Origin: Solirubrobacteraceae bacterium
GTDB lineage: Bacteria; Actinomycetota; Thermoleophilia; Solirubrobacterales; Solirubrobacteraceae
Reading direction: 5' to 3'
NCBI GenBank assembly: GCA_017882455.1
Contig: JADGPL010000021.1
Span: 1 to 58,680, forward strand
Length of the DNA: 58,680 bases
Every line of letters starts with the position of its first letter. Position 1 is the first letter of the stretch. The notes beneath the pieces are model-generated. The model was not told where the DNA came from. It worked only from the letters and a program-made list of their open reading frames with translations, and made no database searches. Shown in pieces: positions 1,368 through 10,910 of this stretch. The position numbers and the translations under genes were made by a program.

Positions 1368-2738
1368 TCAAGCGGCTTTGAGGCTCCGACCGTTGCCCGC
1401 CGCAAGCTCTGTCCAGGGTGCTCGCGTCTCGCTGTTGCCCATTGCCGCCCATTCGGTCCCGCCAACGAGCGCTTGCAGGCGCTTCTTGGCGGCAGCGTCG
1501 CGGCGCATCCCGTGGCGATAGACGCGCAGGGTGAAGCCAGGGTCCGTATGCCCGATCTGATCCATGACGCTGCCGGGATCGACTCCGAGCGCGACGAGTG
1601 TCGAGGCGAACGTGTGGCGCAGCTTGTGCGGCGTCAGACCCTCCGGTAGGGGAACCTCCCCCGCCTCGATCAGCTTCTCGTTGGCTGTCGCCACGGCCTT
1701 GTCGAGTACGCGCCGACGTATGTTGCCCTGGATCAGCTCGGACCCGGCCGCAGTCGTGAACACGAACACGCTCGGGCCGGTGCTCGCCGCATGCGCCTTG
1801 TACGCGGCCAGCTCGTCGCGGAGCGCGGGCAGTAGGTCCACCTGTCGCATCCCGGCGTCGGTCTTCGACGCACGCACGGTGAGCCGGCTGCCGGCGAGGT
1901 CAACGTCTCGCCACTGGAGCGCGGTCAACTCGCCGATCCGCAGGCCGGCGAAGACGAGCGTCGAGAGCAGCGCCCGCCGGTAGACGAGCCCGCCCTTCTG
2001 ATCGTGGCCTCCCTTCGCCTTGGCGTGGACGTCGAGTTCGCCCGCAGCATCGAGCAGCGCCTCGATGTGCTCGGCGCGATCGAGCCATACCGGAGCGGCC
2101 TTCTGCGGCTTGAGTCGTCGCCTGCGGCCCTTCGCTGGGTTCGCGCCGATCAGCCCGTACTCGACGGCGACCTCGAGAATCTGCCCGAGACGGGTGATCG
2201 TCTTGTTGATCGACGTTGCTGAGAGGGCTCGGCGTGCCCGCTTGCGCTCGCATCCGTTCTTGTCTGTGTACGTGTGGGTCAGCGGTCTGCCGTTGGCTGC
2301 GGCTGCTTGGATCGCTCGGGCTTCCGCCACCTTGGCCTGGCGGTAGCGATCGACCTCGGCAATCGTGATCTGCGACAGGCGATGGCTCTTGAAGAAGGGC
2401 AGCAGATGGCTTGAGAGCTGCCATCCGTAATCGAGCTGCGTCTTCTCGCGCCACTCTCCCTTTGTGGACTCGAACCACTGTGAGGCGAACTCGTGGAAGG
2501 TCGGGTCCTGGTCGATCTCGGGAGCTGGCTCGGGCGCAGGAGGGCGCCAGATGCCGCGTCGTACGTCGGCGAGGATGTTCTGTAGCTCGGTTTGCGCCTT
2601 CGTTCGTGTCCAGCCTTCGGCGGCTGTCCCGAGTGCCACGTACTCGCGTCGGCCGTAGGCGCGGAAGCGCAGTCCGTAGGTCGGGCTGCGCCTGCGCTCG
2701 TCCACGATCACCTGTCCCGTCGCTAGTGGGGGCATCAC
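1368..2738 (-). CDS. int: Tyrosine recombinase / phage-type integrase
   Basis: 456 aa, the usual size for an actinobacterial tRNA-targeting integrase. The N-terminus (about 15-60) is an AP2-like arm-binding segment, about 78-140 is the SAM-like core-binding domain, and about 215-430 is the catalytic domain. All catalytic residues are present: R267 in AGLRIGEL, K292 in ASKT, H371 and R374 in HKLRHTFAS, H397 in IGHTD and nucleophile Y407 in RVYRHG. It would catalyse insertion and excision between the tRNA-Arg site and the element. Its ATG at 2738 overlaps the end of the upstream gene (stop near 2735) in an ATGA arrangement, so the two are translationally coupled. Confidence 0.95.
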   Translation of the reverse strand: MMPPLATGQVIVDERRRSPTYGLRFRAYGRREYVALGTAAEGWTRTKAQTELQNILADVRRGIWRPPAPEPAPEIDQDPTFHEFASQWFESTKGEWREKTQLDYGWQLSSHLLPFFKSHRLSQITIAEVDRYRQAKVAEARAIQAAAANGRPLTHTYTDKNGCERKRARRALSATSINKTITRLGQILEVAVEYGLIGANPAKGRRRRLKPQKAAPVWLDRAEHIEALLDAAGELDVHAKAKGGHDQKGGLVYRRALLSTLVFAGLRIGELTALQWRDVDLAGSRLTVRASKTDAGMRQVDLLPALRDELAAYKAHAASTGPSVFVFTTAAGSELIQGNIRRRVLDKAVATANEKLIEAGEVPLPEGLTPHKLRHTFASTLVALGVDPGSVMDQIGHTDPGFTLRVYRHGMRRDAAAKKRLQALVGGTEWAAMGNSETRAPWTELAAGNGRSLKAA

Positions 2739-5806: not shown

Positions 5807-6124
5807 ATGACGACAGCCGAGATCCTTGACCGTGCTGGCCGCCTTCTTGCGGACGCCGCGCCGCGCCAATCGAAAGTGATCCTCTTTGGCTCGCACGGCC
5901 GTGGGGATGCTGGCGCGGACAGCGATTTCGACTTCCTTGTGGTCGAGCCTTCGGTGGCGAGCAAGGCAAAGGAGATGGTGCGGCTGCGAGCCGTCCTCGA
6001 CCCGCTGGGTATCGCCGCCGATGTCGTGGTCGTCCCACGCGGCTACATGGAGGAATGGGGCGATGTCCCCGGAACGCTGCTCCACGACGCGCTGACGGAG
6101 GGCCGTGTCCTCGCCGAAACGTGA
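5807..6124 (+). CDS. MNT-type nucleotidyltransferase (antitoxin-like)
   Basis: 105 aa, minimal nucleotidyltransferase. FGSHGRGDAGADSDFDFLVV (26-45) is the G-S-x10-D-x-D signature of Pol-beta-like MNT proteins; a third acidic position may be D72 in ADVVVV. Proteins of this size paired with HEPN partners act as antitoxins, in studied cases by AMPylating the HEPN toxin. The stop lies inside the start of the next gene (20-bp overlap), so the pair is coupled. It is an island gene; 183 bp precede it with no other gene. Confidence 0.85.
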   Translation: MTTAEILDRAGRLLADAAPRQSKVILFGSHGRGDAGADSDFDFLVVEPSVASKAKEMVRLRAVLDPLGIAADVVVVPRGYMEEWGDVPGTLLHDALTEGRVLAET

Positions 6125-6512
6125 TGTACGTGACCTCGCCGCTCGCTTTGCCCTGAAGGCCCGCAGCGACGAGATTACGTTGGAGAAGCTCGTCGACGAT
6201 CACGACGTGCCGGATGACGTCATCGGCTTCCACGCTCAGCAGGCGGTCGAGAAGCTGCTGAAGGCGGCTCTCGCAAACGCTGGGGTTCCTCCTCCGCGCG
6301 TCCACGACCTTGGGCGGTTGGTCGCTCTGCTTGACGAGGCCGGGCTGGCTCCGCCGGAGGCGGCACGGGATGCCCGACGACTCGCTCCCTGGGCGGTCGA
6401 ATTCCGATACGAGGACATCCTCGATGAACGCCTCGACCGCAAGGCCGCGAGCGAGACGGTGGCACAGGTCCGCGCCTGGCTCGATCAGCTGCTCGACCAG
6501 CCAAGCACCTGA
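6105..6512 (+). CDS. HEPN-domain protein, partner of MNT nucleotidyltransferase
   Basis: 135 aa from the GTG at 6105, overlapping the MNT gene. It is a four-helix HEPN protein of the PF05168 type: ARFALKARSDEITLEKL, then IGFHAQQAVEKLLKAALANA (about 40-60), then RVHDLGRLVALLDEAGL, ending with AVEFRYEDILDERLD. The FHAQQAxEKxLKA core is typical. I do not see the R-x4-6-H RNase motif of HepT-type toxins, so ribonuclease activity is not assured. Function as a toxin/antitoxin pair is inferred from the operon; a nucleotide-binding role is an alternative. Confidence 0.8.
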   Translation: MSSPKRDVRDLAARFALKARSDEITLEKLVDDHDVPDDVIGFHAQQAVEKLLKAALANAGVPPPRVHDLGRLVALLDEAGLAPPEAARDARRLAPWAVEFRYEDILDERLDRKAASETVAQVRAWLDQLLDQPST

Positions 6513-6547: not shown

Positions 6548-6820
6548 CTACCCGTCGTCGTCGGTCTCGACATCTGCCTCTACGCCAGGGTGGTGCTCTT
6601 TGAAGGTGCGAACGATGCGTCTGGCCGCCTCGGTCGCCGCCGCGCCTATCAGTCCGTCCTTGGCTTGCTCCGCGACTTCGATAGTGACGTTGACGACATC
6701 CTGTCCGACTCCGCGCCGCTCCATAGGCAGAGGGAATTCCGCTTGGAGGCCAGCATCAGAAAGCTGACGTGACAGCATGTGCGCGTCACGAATCGACCCT
6801 GAATAGCGGACTCGGATCAT
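6548..6820 (-). CDS. Hypothetical protein, third gene of DUF2188/zinc-ribbon mini-operon
   Basis: 90 aa from the ATG at 6820 (MIRVRYSGSIRDAHML). That ATG overlaps the TGA of the zinc-ribbon gene as ATGA, which fixes the start. The pattern is alpha/beta: IRVRYSG, then DAHMLSRQLSDAGLQAEF, then DVVNVTIEVAEQ, then a helix AAATEAARRIVRTFKEHHPG, then VEADVETDDDG. It resembles the small sensor-like components of actinobacterial conflict systems, but no family assignment is secure. It would be co-translated with the two genes before it. Confidence 0.6.
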   Translation of the reverse strand: MIRVRYSGSIRDAHMLSRQLSDAGLQAEFPLPMERRGVGQDVVNVTIEVAEQAKDGLIGAAATEAARRIVRTFKEHHPGVEADVETDDDG

Positions 6821-6972
6821 GCCACGGCATCCATGCAATCAGGGCAGAAGTGCTTGTGGGGCTCCGTGCCGGAGTCGATGATCCAGCCCTCCGCCATCCC
6901 GCTCTCCTCGGATTCCGTATCGCGTTCGCCGCATTTGTCGCAGACAATCACTGAATCTGGCTCGGTGCGCAT
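6817..6972 (-). CDS. Small zinc-ribbon protein (51 aa)
   Basis: 51 aa, starting MRTEPDSVIVCDKCGERD. Two knuckles, C11-D-K-C14 and C43-P-D-C46, together with H39 and H41 in PHKHF, point to a structural zinc site. The C-terminus is CMDAVA, and the TGA overlaps the ATG of the next gene. The composition is acidic. It lies 18 bp downstream of the DUF2188 gene. No catalytic domain; likely an adaptor or nucleic-acid/protein-binding ribbon. The tight junctions on both sides support it as real despite its size. Confidence 0.7.
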   Translation of the reverse strand: MRTEPDSVIVCDKCGERDTESEESGMAEGWIIDSGTEPHKHFCPDCMDAVA

Positions 6973-6990
6973 CTGGGGCTCCAGCGACGC

Positions 6991-7236
6991 TCAATGACGA
7001 GTGTCGCGCGGCGGATCAGGGTCCGGCCGGTTGATCGTGTTCGAGTTGCGGATCTGGCCGTTAGGTCGATGGATCACGACCTCTCCTCCGCCTTGCCGGT
7101 GCTCAAGGCGCTCGGTGGATGCAGCCTGCGCTTGGCCTTGGGTCCGATAGAGGCCAGCCGCACGCTGCGCCCCCTCCGCTTTGTCGGCCCATTGACCGCC
7201 GGGCCTCTGCGTTATGTGCCTTCGTTGCCCTGACAT
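6991..7236 (-). CDS. DUF2188 family protein
   Basis: 81 aa: HITQRPGGQWADKAEGAQRA (7-26) followed by a helix with AQAASTERLEHRQGG, then EVVIHRPNGQIRNSNTI. This is the DUF2188 pattern: 'hVvpr.dGWavk.eGakRAs..f.Tq.eAi..ar..a...ggelviHg.dGrIr..nty'. Function of DUF2188 is unknown; members are common in accessory DNA. It is the first gene of a three-gene operon, transcribed leftward from the region near 7240-7300. Confidence 0.8.
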   Translation of the reverse strand: MSGQRRHITQRPGGQWADKAEGAQRAAGLYRTQGQAQAASTERLEHRQGGGEVVIHRPNGQIRNSNTINRPDPDPPRDTRH

Positions 7237-7306
7237 GACGACCCCTTTCTGACCGAACGTATGTACGTGACAAACGATACCCGCCGATGCGGCAGACCCC
7301 CTGAGG

Positions 7307-7704: not shown

Positions 7705-8133
7705 TCACGGGTACGCCCGGACTGCGTGCTCGATGCGGTTGGCTGCATCTACTGGGTCTTCGTGCTCCCAGATGCGGATAACCGTCCACCCGGCCTCGCG
7801 CAAGACTCGGTTGTTGCGAGCGTCGCGTTCCTTTGTCCAGGCGAGCTTTTGCTCCCACCACTCGGTGTTGGTCCGAGGGAGTCGTAGGTGCTGCTCGCAC
7901 GCGTGCCAGTGGCACGAGTCGACAAAGCAGGCGACTTTGGCCCGTGTGAAGACGATGTCGGCCTGGCATCGCAGGCCGACCAGCGGTCGGACGCTTGTGC
8001 GGTAGCGCAGTCCGCGGCGGTGTAGTACGCGGCGCACTGCCAGCTCGGGCTTGGTGTCGCGACGCGGCATGCGCTGCATCCGCGCCCGGACCTTCGGCGT
8101 TGTGGGCGGTGCGGGTGGCAGACGCCTCGCCAA
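7705..8133 (-). CDS. vsr: Very short patch repair endonuclease (Vsr)
   Basis: 142 aa, normal Vsr length. Visible hallmarks are MPRRDTKPELAVRRVLHRRG (22-41), QADIVFTRAKVACFVDSCHW (57-76) containing catalytic D59, WHAC, and KERDARNNRVLREAGWTVIR (101-120) followed by IWEHED. Vsr nicks 5' of T in T:G mismatches arising from deamination of 5-methylcytosine, so it protects the sites methylated by the adjacent m5C methyltransferase. It is the last gene of the three-gene R-M operon, 5 bp after the endonuclease stop. Confidence 0.92.
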   Translation of the reverse strand: MARRLPPAPPTTPKVRARMQRMPRRDTKPELAVRRVLHRRGLRYRTSVRPLVGLRCQADIVFTRAKVACFVDSCHWHACEQHLRLPRTNTEWWEQKLAWTKERDARNNRVLREAGWTVIRIWEHEDPVDAANRIEHAVRAYP

Positions 8134-8138
8134 CCGAC

Positions 8139-9257
8139 CTACGTCTGCTCGTCGGGGACGGCGTCGGCGTCGTTGACGACGGTCTGAGGGTCGACATCGC
8201 GTGGGATGACGTATGGGTCATAGCCAGCGAGGTCGAACTGGAGAGTGTCGGGCGACGCCGACAGTCGTAGGTCTGCGAGAACCCGGCCGGCACCGAAGTC
8301 TGGGATGGTGTCCTCGTATCGCTTCAACGGCTCGGCGACGTAGCGGCGCAGGAACTCGGCCTGTGCAGGTCCGGCGGTCGCACCGATGTGCGCGTAGGCG
8401 TCCTGGCCAAGGAACACCTTTCCACCCTCGGCCTCGAAGGCCGCTTTCACCTGGTCGAGCGTGTCGCACGGCGTTGAGTCGAAGACGAGGAGGCGCGGGA
8501 CGTGGTCGCTGTAGGTGCAGTCAGCCGGGAAGACCAACTCCTCATTGAGCCGGCCTTGGCGTGACGCTGCGTCGGTGATGCGGATCTTGACCTCGTACGC
8601 GTACGGTGTCTTGGGGTCGTCGACGACACAGTCGACTTGACGCCGTCCGGCCGATTTGCCGCCGGGTTTGTCCGGCTTGCGCTTGATCGGGCTTGTGCGC
8701 GAGCCGTAGGCCGTGCCGCCGAGGGCGCGCGCGACGATCGCGTCGTACAGGTAGCCGGTCTCTTGGCCTGAGCGGTTGTCGATGTCCATCATCCACTTGC
8801 GCCACACGACAAGCGAGCTGAGCGCGCCCTCGCTGAGCAGTCCGTGCTCCAGCAGAGTACGGGGGCCGACCTGGTCACTGGTGGCGAACGCCTGTGTGCT
8901 CAGGATTCGCCGGTACTTCAGGCGCCGAGCGAACAGACGCACCAAGAGCTCCAAGTAGACCGTGTTGTGCCGGTCGATCCCTTCGATCCACTCAACGGCG
9001 TCCTCGACATCTACACCGGTCGCTTCCCATTCGCCGGGGTCGATCACGTTGAAGAAGTCGGGCACCTCGACTGCCCCATAGCGGCCGGCGACGTCGTACC
9101 CCCTGTCAGTCGCCACGCGCAGCGCGAGGCCAGCGATGACCTGCCAGCTGACCTCGATCTTCAGCGACCCAGTCAACATGCGGCGGGCGTTCTGAAGGTT
9201 ACGTTTGGTCTCCGGGTCCATACTCGGACCCATGTTACGGGGCACTAAGCCCGGCAA
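8139..9257 (-). CDS. ApaLI-like type II restriction endonuclease
   Basis: 372 aa. The PD-(D/E)XK core is clear: RRQVDCVVDD (206-215, D209), then YAYEVKIRITDAASRQGR (219-236, E222 and K224). The following ELVFPADCTYSDHVPRLLVF and the 'TLDQVKAAFEAEGGKVFLGQ' region match my recollection of the ApaLI-like endonuclease family (ApaLI cuts GTGCAC), but the specificity cannot be read from sequence alone. It lies between the m5C methyltransferase (13-bp overlap) and vsr, so it is the restriction partner. The first ATG (9257) may be too far upstream; M9 or M13 are alternatives. Confidence 0.82.
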   Translation of the reverse strand: MPGLVPRNMGPSMDPETKRNLQNARRMLTGSLKIEVSWQVIAGLALRVATDRGYDVAGRYGAVEVPDFFNVIDPGEWEATGVDVEDAVEWIEGIDRHNTVYLELLVRLFARRLKYRRILSTQAFATSDQVGPRTLLEHGLLSEGALSSLVVWRKWMMDIDNRSGQETGYLYDAIVARALGGTAYGSRTSPIKRKPDKPGGKSAGRRQVDCVVDDPKTPYAYEVKIRITDAASRQGRLNEELVFPADCTYSDHVPRLLVFDSTPCDTLDQVKAAFEAEGGKVFLGQDAYAHIGATAGPAQAEFLRRYVAEPLKRYEDTIPDFGAGRVLADLRLSASPDTLQFDLAGYDPYVIPRDVDPQTVVNDADAVPDEQT

Positions 9258-10537
9258 AAAAGACTTTGCGTAAGGAACCGGCTGCGGACTGCCGCAACCA
9301 CTCTGGCAAGCGCGGGACTCATCTGTTGCGCCGGCGTCACGTCGAACTCCAGCAGCTCGCCGGTGCGATGCTCAGAGCGCTCCTCGCCAGCAGACCTCAA
9401 ATGCTCTGCGACAGCTCGGCCGAGCGCCTCGGCGAACCTGGGCGGGATTGCGTTACCCACGAGCGTGGCCTGGTCAGTTGGTTGACCGCGGAATGTGAAG
9501 TCGTCAGGAAACGTCTGGAGACGAGCGGCCTCGCGCAGCGTCAGTCGTCGGTCGATCGTGGGATGAATGAACTCACGCACGGCCGCTGACGTGATCGCCT
9601 TTGAGGGTTCGTCAATCCGCAAACGACGGAGGCCTGCGGGCGCGCCCCCCCGCCGCTCAGTCGGTGTTCCGTCGCGCACGCGCCGGTTGGCGCGTTTGCG
9701 GTAGCTGTCGTGCCAAAGCTCGTGGGGTAGGTCGCGCATAGTCTGGCCGGGCCTGAGTGCCGCTATACGTATCTGCTCAAGGTCGCTGATCTTCGAGGCT
9801 ACATGTCCCTGTGGAGCATCTCGTGTGCCAGCCGCGGGAAGGTCTGCGAGAGCCTCCCCCAGCGTTGGCGTCGGTGGTCGTCCGGCTACGTACCGTGCGC
9901 CCGGCGCGCCCCATGCGCTGTGGCTGGGTTCCGGGAAGGGTGGATCTCCGAGCAAGCTGGCGATGACTATGACACGCTTGCGGTGCTGAGGTACCCCGTA
10001 GTTGGCGAGGTTGACCTTACGCACTCTCACCCGGTACCCGGCATCGAGCAGCGGTTCCAGCAACTCGAACACGAAGCGACCGCCGCCAGCCGTGGCGAAC
10101 CCCTCGACGTTCTCGAAGACGACGACGTCTGGACGCACGGCGGCCGCAAGTCGCGCGTAAACGCCTACCAGACTCCCGCGCGGGTCGTCTTCCTTGCGGC
10201 GCCCGGCCGAGGTAAACGACTGGCACGGAGGCCCACCCGCCATCAGCCGCGGTGTCGCACCGCCGGCAAACTCCAGTACGTCCGCAGCCGACAGCGACGC
10301 GACGTCGACTGACTCACGGTCCTCGCTGAAGTTCGCGTTGAGCGTTTCGACAGCCGGCTGCCAGACGTCGAGGTGCGCGTGGACGTCGAAACCGGCCGCC
10401 TGTAGACCGCACGACAGGCCCCCGGCGCCACAAAACGCATCGACAGCAGGTAGTGCGCCGGCCCTCTCGTCGATGACCGGCAGAGCCCGTCGCGGCACGT
10501 CGGTTGCTTCCGGCGGGGTCTGCTGGGCGGTCGGCAC
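9245..10537 (-). CDS. DNA (cytosine-5-)-methyltransferase
   Basis: 430 aa with the ordered C5-MTase motifs: I, AVDAFCGAGGLSCGLQ (31-46); IV, GGPPCQSF (101-108) with nucleophile C105; VI, FENVEG (141-146); VIII, QHRKRVIVIA (184-193). A variable target-recognition region (about 200-320) is followed by IX, RLTLREAARLQTFPDDF, and X, GNAIPPRFAEALG. It transfers methyl from SAM to C5 of cytosine and protects host DNA from the overlapping endonuclease. It is the first gene of the R-M/Vsr operon. The C-terminal extension after motif X (about 50 aa) is unassigned. Confidence 0.95.
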   Translation of the reverse strand: MPTAQQTPPEATDVPRRALPVIDERAGALPAVDAFCGAGGLSCGLQAAGFDVHAHLDVWQPAVETLNANFSEDRESVDVASLSAADVLEFAGGATPRLMAGGPPCQSFTSAGRRKEDDPRGSLVGVYARLAAAVRPDVVVFENVEGFATAGGGRFVFELLEPLLDAGYRVRVRKVNLANYGVPQHRKRVIVIASLLGDPPFPEPSHSAWGAPGARYVAGRPPTPTLGEALADLPAAGTRDAPQGHVASKISDLEQIRIAALRPGQTMRDLPHELWHDSYRKRANRRVRDGTPTERRGGAPAGLRRLRIDEPSKAITSAAVREFIHPTIDRRLTLREAARLQTFPDDFTFRGQPTDQATLVGNAIPPRFAEALGRAVAEHLRSAGEERSEHRTGELLEFDVTPAQQMSPALARVVAAVRSRFLTQSLFCRA

Positions 10538-10868: not shown

Positions 10869-10910
10869 CCTCCTAAGCGGTAGATCCAGGTTCGACTCCT
10901 GGCGGGGGCA
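10869..10910 (+). repeat. Right attachment site, 42-bp partial tRNA-Arg copy
   Basis: Exact copy of 183-224: the 3' half of tRNA-Arg(CCT) without D-arm or 5' acceptor strand, so not a functional tRNA. It marks the right end of the island. Confidence 0.92.

Follow-up and report, generated by a model that had tools for sequence, protein, structure and literature searches.

The three small genes at 6548-7236 of the window (the entire 58,680-nucleotide stretch of contig JADGPL010000021.1 from a Solirubrobacteraceae bacterium) appear, from their arrangement, to constitute a real operon on a mobile genomic island: they code for a DUF2188 protein, a 51-aa CxxC/CxxC protein and a 90-aa protein. We consider the chances about evenly balanced that this unit is an SOS-controlled accessory operon, with a likely LexA-type switch in its promoter and the DUF2188 protein as its conserved core.

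All three frames lie on the minus strand, where the transcription order is DUF2188, 51-aa protein, 90-aa protein. The first two genes are separated by 18 nt (6973-6990), and the second and third share an ATGA overlap at 6820-6817: the tight unit inside an island described by the first-pass annotation was recovered with every frame as it had been placed. A 42-bp repeat derived from the 3' part of a tRNA-Arg gene at both ends, together with a tyrosine integrase gene, indicates that the unit sits in an integrated element of 10.7 kb. The features of the element are as follows:

153-224: tRNA-Arg(CCT) gene
183-224, no strand assigned: att-like 42-bp exact repeat, 3' part of the tRNA-Arg(CCT) gene, left end of the element
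1368-2738, minus strand: tyrosine integrase of the element (PF00589, E 1.4e-18; PF14659, E 1.4e-9)
5807-6512, plus strand: nucleotidyltransferase (105 aa) and HEPN (135 aa) genes, overlapping by a few bases
6548-6820, minus strand: gene 3, 90-aa orphan protein, with a truncated, frameshifted relative on contig C13 of the same genome and a single-sequence AF2 model
6817-6972, minus strand: gene 2, 51-aa CxxC...CxxC protein, with a homologue in genome G244, a coding pattern of codon-position differences and GGAG about 7 nt 5' of the ATG
6991-7236, minus strand: gene 1, DUF2188 protein of 81 aa (PF09954; PADLOC PDC-S16), with a second copy on C13
7254-7267, no strand assigned: LexA-type box CGAACGTATGTACG, 17 nt 5' of the DUF2188 ATG
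7274-7279, minus strand: -10-like TATCGT, placed by eye, adjoining the box on its upstream side, inside a 31-bp block
7705-8133: Vsr-like nickase
8139-9257, minus strand: frame of 372 aa that overlaps the C5 methylase gene, with no match in Pfam or among PDB sequences
9245-10537: C5 DNA methylase
10869-10910, no strand assigned: att-like 42-bp repeat, exact copy of 183-224, right end of the element

The nucleotidyltransferase and HEPN genes are likely an MNT/HEPN pair, placed tail-to-tail with the DUF2188 operon. In the 372-aa frame a VDCVVDD...YEVKIR stretch resembles, by eye, the core of PD-(D/E)XK nucleases, and its sequence suggests that this is probably the restriction enzyme partner. At the tRNA side of the element, a 71-bp stretch within 183-342 shares 82% identity with the 3' terminus of the integrase gene (1368-1451) and may be left over from a previous integration event.

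The first gene is a clear member of the DUF2188 family. Its product scores 62 bits with PF09954, for which the cut-off is 22 (E 6e-17; positions 2-61 of the 62 in the profile), matches the PADLOC profile PDC-S16 (E 1.7e-15 and 3.5e-14; positions 1-74 of 75) and has the W, R, GGGE and DP-x-PP-x-D residues that are conserved in the family. PDC-S16 is likewise matched by all 48 of the 48 aligned DUF2188 members scanned; the profile is a candidate phage-defence label, and a literature search for its name found no paper. The distribution of the family is patchy and widespread: matches at E <= 0.001 were found in 35 of 298 genomes of the class and 52 of 396 of the phylum, and matches at E <= 1e-8 in 20 of the 357 genomes sharing a class with an alphaproteobacterial genome and in 27 of the 364 from a class on the Actinomycetes side, while the 80 named loci kept out of 127 come from many phyla. 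The structural model of the DUF2188 protein (pLDDT 82.8) has a strands-helix-strands arrangement, for which Foldseek returned no match at E <= 0.001. AcrIF5 (best VIA Z 5.8) and YegP (Z 5.2) were set aside as structural relatives, with Z-scores under the level for calling kinship, as were tau peptides from a phmmer search of the PDB, which were low-complexity matches of about 20 residues. DUF2188 is listed as occurring in genomic islands 'for DNA damage repair', in a passage that itself presents no evidence for this (PMC10642018). This was the sole paper returned by a literature search for DUF2188 with 'SOS response', and a search combining DUF2188 with LexA found none.

The second gene codes for a protein with two cysteine pairs, C11-x2-C14 and C43-x2-C46. 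These are 28 residues apart, as in small Cys4 zinc-ribbon-like proteins, although the protein falls below the cut-off of every Pfam family (best Zn_ribbon_8, 15.5 bits against 34.4). Neither it nor the 90-aa protein has a family above cut-off in Pfam, NCBIfam or PADLOC, and PHROGs gave both only matches of E 0.026 or worse. Among 249 genomes of the class, 27 had a match to the 51-aa protein at E <= 0.1; besides the own genome the clear match was that in G244, of the same genus (E 5.9e-14; 56% identity), and G135 has a likely homologue (E 4.8e-4). The differences from the G244 homologue fall 18/12/29 on the three codon positions, and 14 of the 50 aligned codons differ synonymously. The frame is real because of this homologue and the codon-position pattern of the differences: the first-pass annotation was right to suspect a genuine gene short enough to be missed, and it is possibly one that automatic callers overlook. 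In G244 the gene stands alone, the flanking genes on both sides being unrelated to DUF2188.

The evidence for the third frame consists of the beginning of a broken copy on C13, where 24 of 31 residues are identical over the first 31 codons, and a single-sequence AF2 model with a ferredoxin-like topology (mean pLDDT 80.7). The model had no Foldseek match at E <= 0.001, and its best VIA Z of 8.6 came with many tied matches; the predicted fold is a common arrangement and gives no reading of function. No relatives were found by tblastn in plasmids and phages, or in the viral_contigs and genome_contigs collections. Of 299 class genomes searched, eight had matches at E <= 0.01: besides the own genome these were seven others (E 2e-4 to 9e-3), which we take to be chance matches, six lying inside frames of at least 296 aa and the seventh in a frame interrupted by a stop. 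The EACC1 family was considered for this protein, and Pfam gave no match to it.

The own genome holds a second DUF2188 copy on C13 (L004, 7110-8088), directly after a tRNA-Val gene. It is 80% identical in DNA to the window copy, with coding differences of 12/6/30 at codon positions 1/2/3, and 24 nt beyond it a frameshifted and truncated 90-aa gene begins. There is no 51-aa gene at C13, where 12 nt stand in place of 158 nt of the window, and either a gain in the window or a loss on C13 is possible. Upstream, the 31-bp block with the -10-like element and the LexA-type box (7254-7284) is identical at 30 of 31 positions between the two copies, while the bases on either side have diverged; the box is present at both. 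A 70-aa frame resembling HARE-HTH (24.6 bits against a cut-off of 25.9) lies ahead of the C13 copy.

In the loci searched, the trio itself is a local assemblage and not a conserved system. When both small proteins were searched with phmmer against 230 fetched loci (897 kb, comprising DUF2188 loci and their surroundings), the 90-aa protein was found only at C13, and the 51-aa protein only in the G244 and G135 loci, which had been fetched for that homologue and are away from DUF2188. None of the other-genome DUF2188 loci among the 230 has an adjoining homologue of either; unlike the window unit, the family elsewhere usually occurs without the two small partner genes. A small CxxC..CxxC frame tightly 3' of DUF2188 was seen in one of the 205 loci with enough downstream sequence (L202); this Chloroflexi locus has a zinc-ribbon-like frame of 49 aa, 36 nt past DUF2188 and of a different type from the 51-aa protein. 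The suggestion of the first-pass annotation that a conserved gene order might define a new accessory system did not hold, the partners being absent beside DUF2188 in the other genomes searched. It had named two observations that would speak against its proposal: one, a lack of co-occurrence in other genomes, is what we find in the loci searched; the other, a lack of conservation of the 51-aa frame, is contradicted by G244.

What links the unit to the SOS response is its promoter. The box CGAACGTATGTACG differs at one position from CGAACN4GTTCG and fits CGAACN4GNNCG fully, the latter being the core of tCGAAC-N4-GNNCGa, the LexA consensus given for Streptomyces (S. venezuelae) (PMC9380542). It departs from the perfect core GAAC-N4-GTTC in one half-site, reading GAACGTATGTAC with GTAC in place of GTTC. 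No clear -35 was seen at this promoter. The host has a LexA of its own (PF01726, E 1e-23), with a CGAACACATGTTCG box before the lexA gene, and a CGAACATATGTTCG box before an ImuB-like frame (IMS family, PF00817, E 6e-11), at which the distance from box start to ATG is 15 nt. The window box resembles those of actinobacterial SOS genes under LexA control (lexA, imuB and others) in its spacing, in its place directly before a start codon and in the presence of a host LexA with like boxes, and differs from them by the half-site departing from GTTC; we regard it as a putative operator. A single one-mismatch box is weak evidence, because 11 of them occur across the window against 3.0 expected. Two more perfect CGAACATATGTTCG boxes in the own genome (C6:2926, L063; C8:35478, L065) stand directly before frames of 122 and 117 aa; these have no Pfam match and are candidate SOS genes by virtue of the boxes.

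Upstream regions of DUF2188 genes in other genomes have an excess of perfect LexA boxes. Among 67 class and phylum loci (weak or partial matches not all being included), GAACN4GTTC occurs within 200 bp upstream in four (L034, L039, L117, L129), against 0.07 expected from flanks and 0.16 from shuffles, and none of 300 shuffles reached four. The 80 named loci, with phyla taken from record titles, have this palindrome once (Chloroflexi) and GTTCN7GTTC three times (Phenylobacterium, Rhizobiaceae and a Pseudomonadota MAG, the last, L211, being kept under 'other') against 0.31 expected; the lexA genes in the genomes of these three loci (L211, L218, L258) themselves carry GAACN7GAAC boxes, the same direct repeat. 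The gammaproteobacterial box CTGTN8ACAG was found before none of the 80. Fresh sets taken alone gave new matches in only one of 19 alphaproteobacterial loci (0.07 expected) and one of 28 on the Actinomycetes side (0.2 expected). In combination, one or other of the two boxes precedes DUF2188 at 10 of 192 distinct loci against 1.38 expected, which gives a Poisson P of 2e-6 for loci that are not fully independent. For these counts the window and the C13 copy were left out, L288, which repeats L258, was excluded, and identical upstream stretches were merged, reducing 194 loci to 192 in the combined count and to 193 in the spacer control.

This spacer control is, in our judgement of the sequence comparisons, the clearest of the outside tests. 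With n running from 0 to 12, five of the 106 actinobacterial upstream regions have GAACNnGTTC at n=4 and no more than two have it at each remaining spacing; GTTCNnGTTC was present in three of 27 alphaproteobacterial regions at n=7, in two at n=0 and at no other spacing. The palindrome with spacer 4 and the direct repeat with spacer 7 are the LexA motifs described for Actinobacteria and Alphaproteobacteria, respectively (PMC3323433, PMC9578287). A perfect box of either type is absent before 182 of the 192 DUF2188 genes, and at all 15 viral and all four plasmid DUF2188 loci. The relaxed consensus, to which the window box conforms, occurs at six sites against 3.0 expected before DUF2188 genes of 95 actinobacterial loci, an enrichment that is not significant. 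The gene cg0841 of Corynebacterium glutamicum, a possible DUF2188 gene of that species, is given no weight as support. For cg0841 a LexA site and induction by ciprofloxacin are reported (PMC2823685, PMC5055667).

We propose that the three genes form a single short operon, carried as cargo of the 10.7-kb tRNA-Arg-integrated element and placed under the SOS switch of the host. LexA bound to the box, which overlaps the presumed transcription start, would hold the operon off. Activation of RecA would follow DNA damage or an attack on DNA, for instance by phage replication or restriction, and the resulting cleavage of LexA would release the DUF2188 protein, the 51-aa zinc-ribbon-like protein and the 90-aa protein jointly. 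Of these, DUF2188 would be the conserved working part, with the other two as lineage-specific accessories. From the apparent regulation, the candidate defence label and the company of genes, we infer that the products may have DNA or invading DNA as their target during damage.

The element would also be compatible with a defence cargo operon that is unregulated or regulated in another way, wherein DUF2188 is a candidate anti-phage gene of a defence set with the HEPN/MNT pair, Vsr, the methyltransferase and the putative endonuclease, and the box is a coincidence. The match of the window protein, and of all 48 members scanned, to PDC-S16 agrees with this, as do the nucleotidyltransferase, HEPN, Vsr and C5 methylase neighbours beside the integrase and att repeats; yet PDC-S16 is a candidate label for whose name the literature search turned up no test, and the conserved -10/box block and the spacer-specific excess of boxes are left unexplained, so that we grant this account a serious though minor share of probability. 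If the genes were instead a passive set of small orphans, brought together by chance in a decaying element and without joint function, then the restriction of the 90-aa protein to its own genome in the collections searched, the loss of the 51-aa gene and breakage of the 90-aa gene at C13, and the solitary 51-aa homologue in G244 would all be natural. This is unlikely in the face of the tight spacing and overlap of the genes, the third-position excess of differences in DUF2188 and the 51-aa frame, and the promoter block preserved between the copies. Overlapping small genes in a mobile element adjoining a HEPN/MNT pair could further bring to mind a toxin-antitoxin-like or regulator set, with the zinc-ribbon protein controlling the other two, which we find very improbable: neither the 51-aa nor the 90-aa protein has a toxin or antitoxin match in Pfam, NCBIfam, PHROG or PADLOC, and the pairing is not conserved elsewhere in the loci searched.

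Beyond the window, the SOS-controlled operon that we favour suggests, as a tentative extension, that DUF2188 has been repeatedly recruited to the SOS response in unrelated phyla by way of a local LexA box, as a small DNA-damage or anti-invader protein that is here accompanied by two lineage-specific, co-expressed partners. The trio itself is an example of how mobile elements build small operons by adding local orphans to a conserved core. If DUF2188 is under SOS control in several phyla, then a family tagged 'unknown' or 'defence candidate' would gain DNA damage as the condition in which to search for its function, and this would offer a cheap and direct test.
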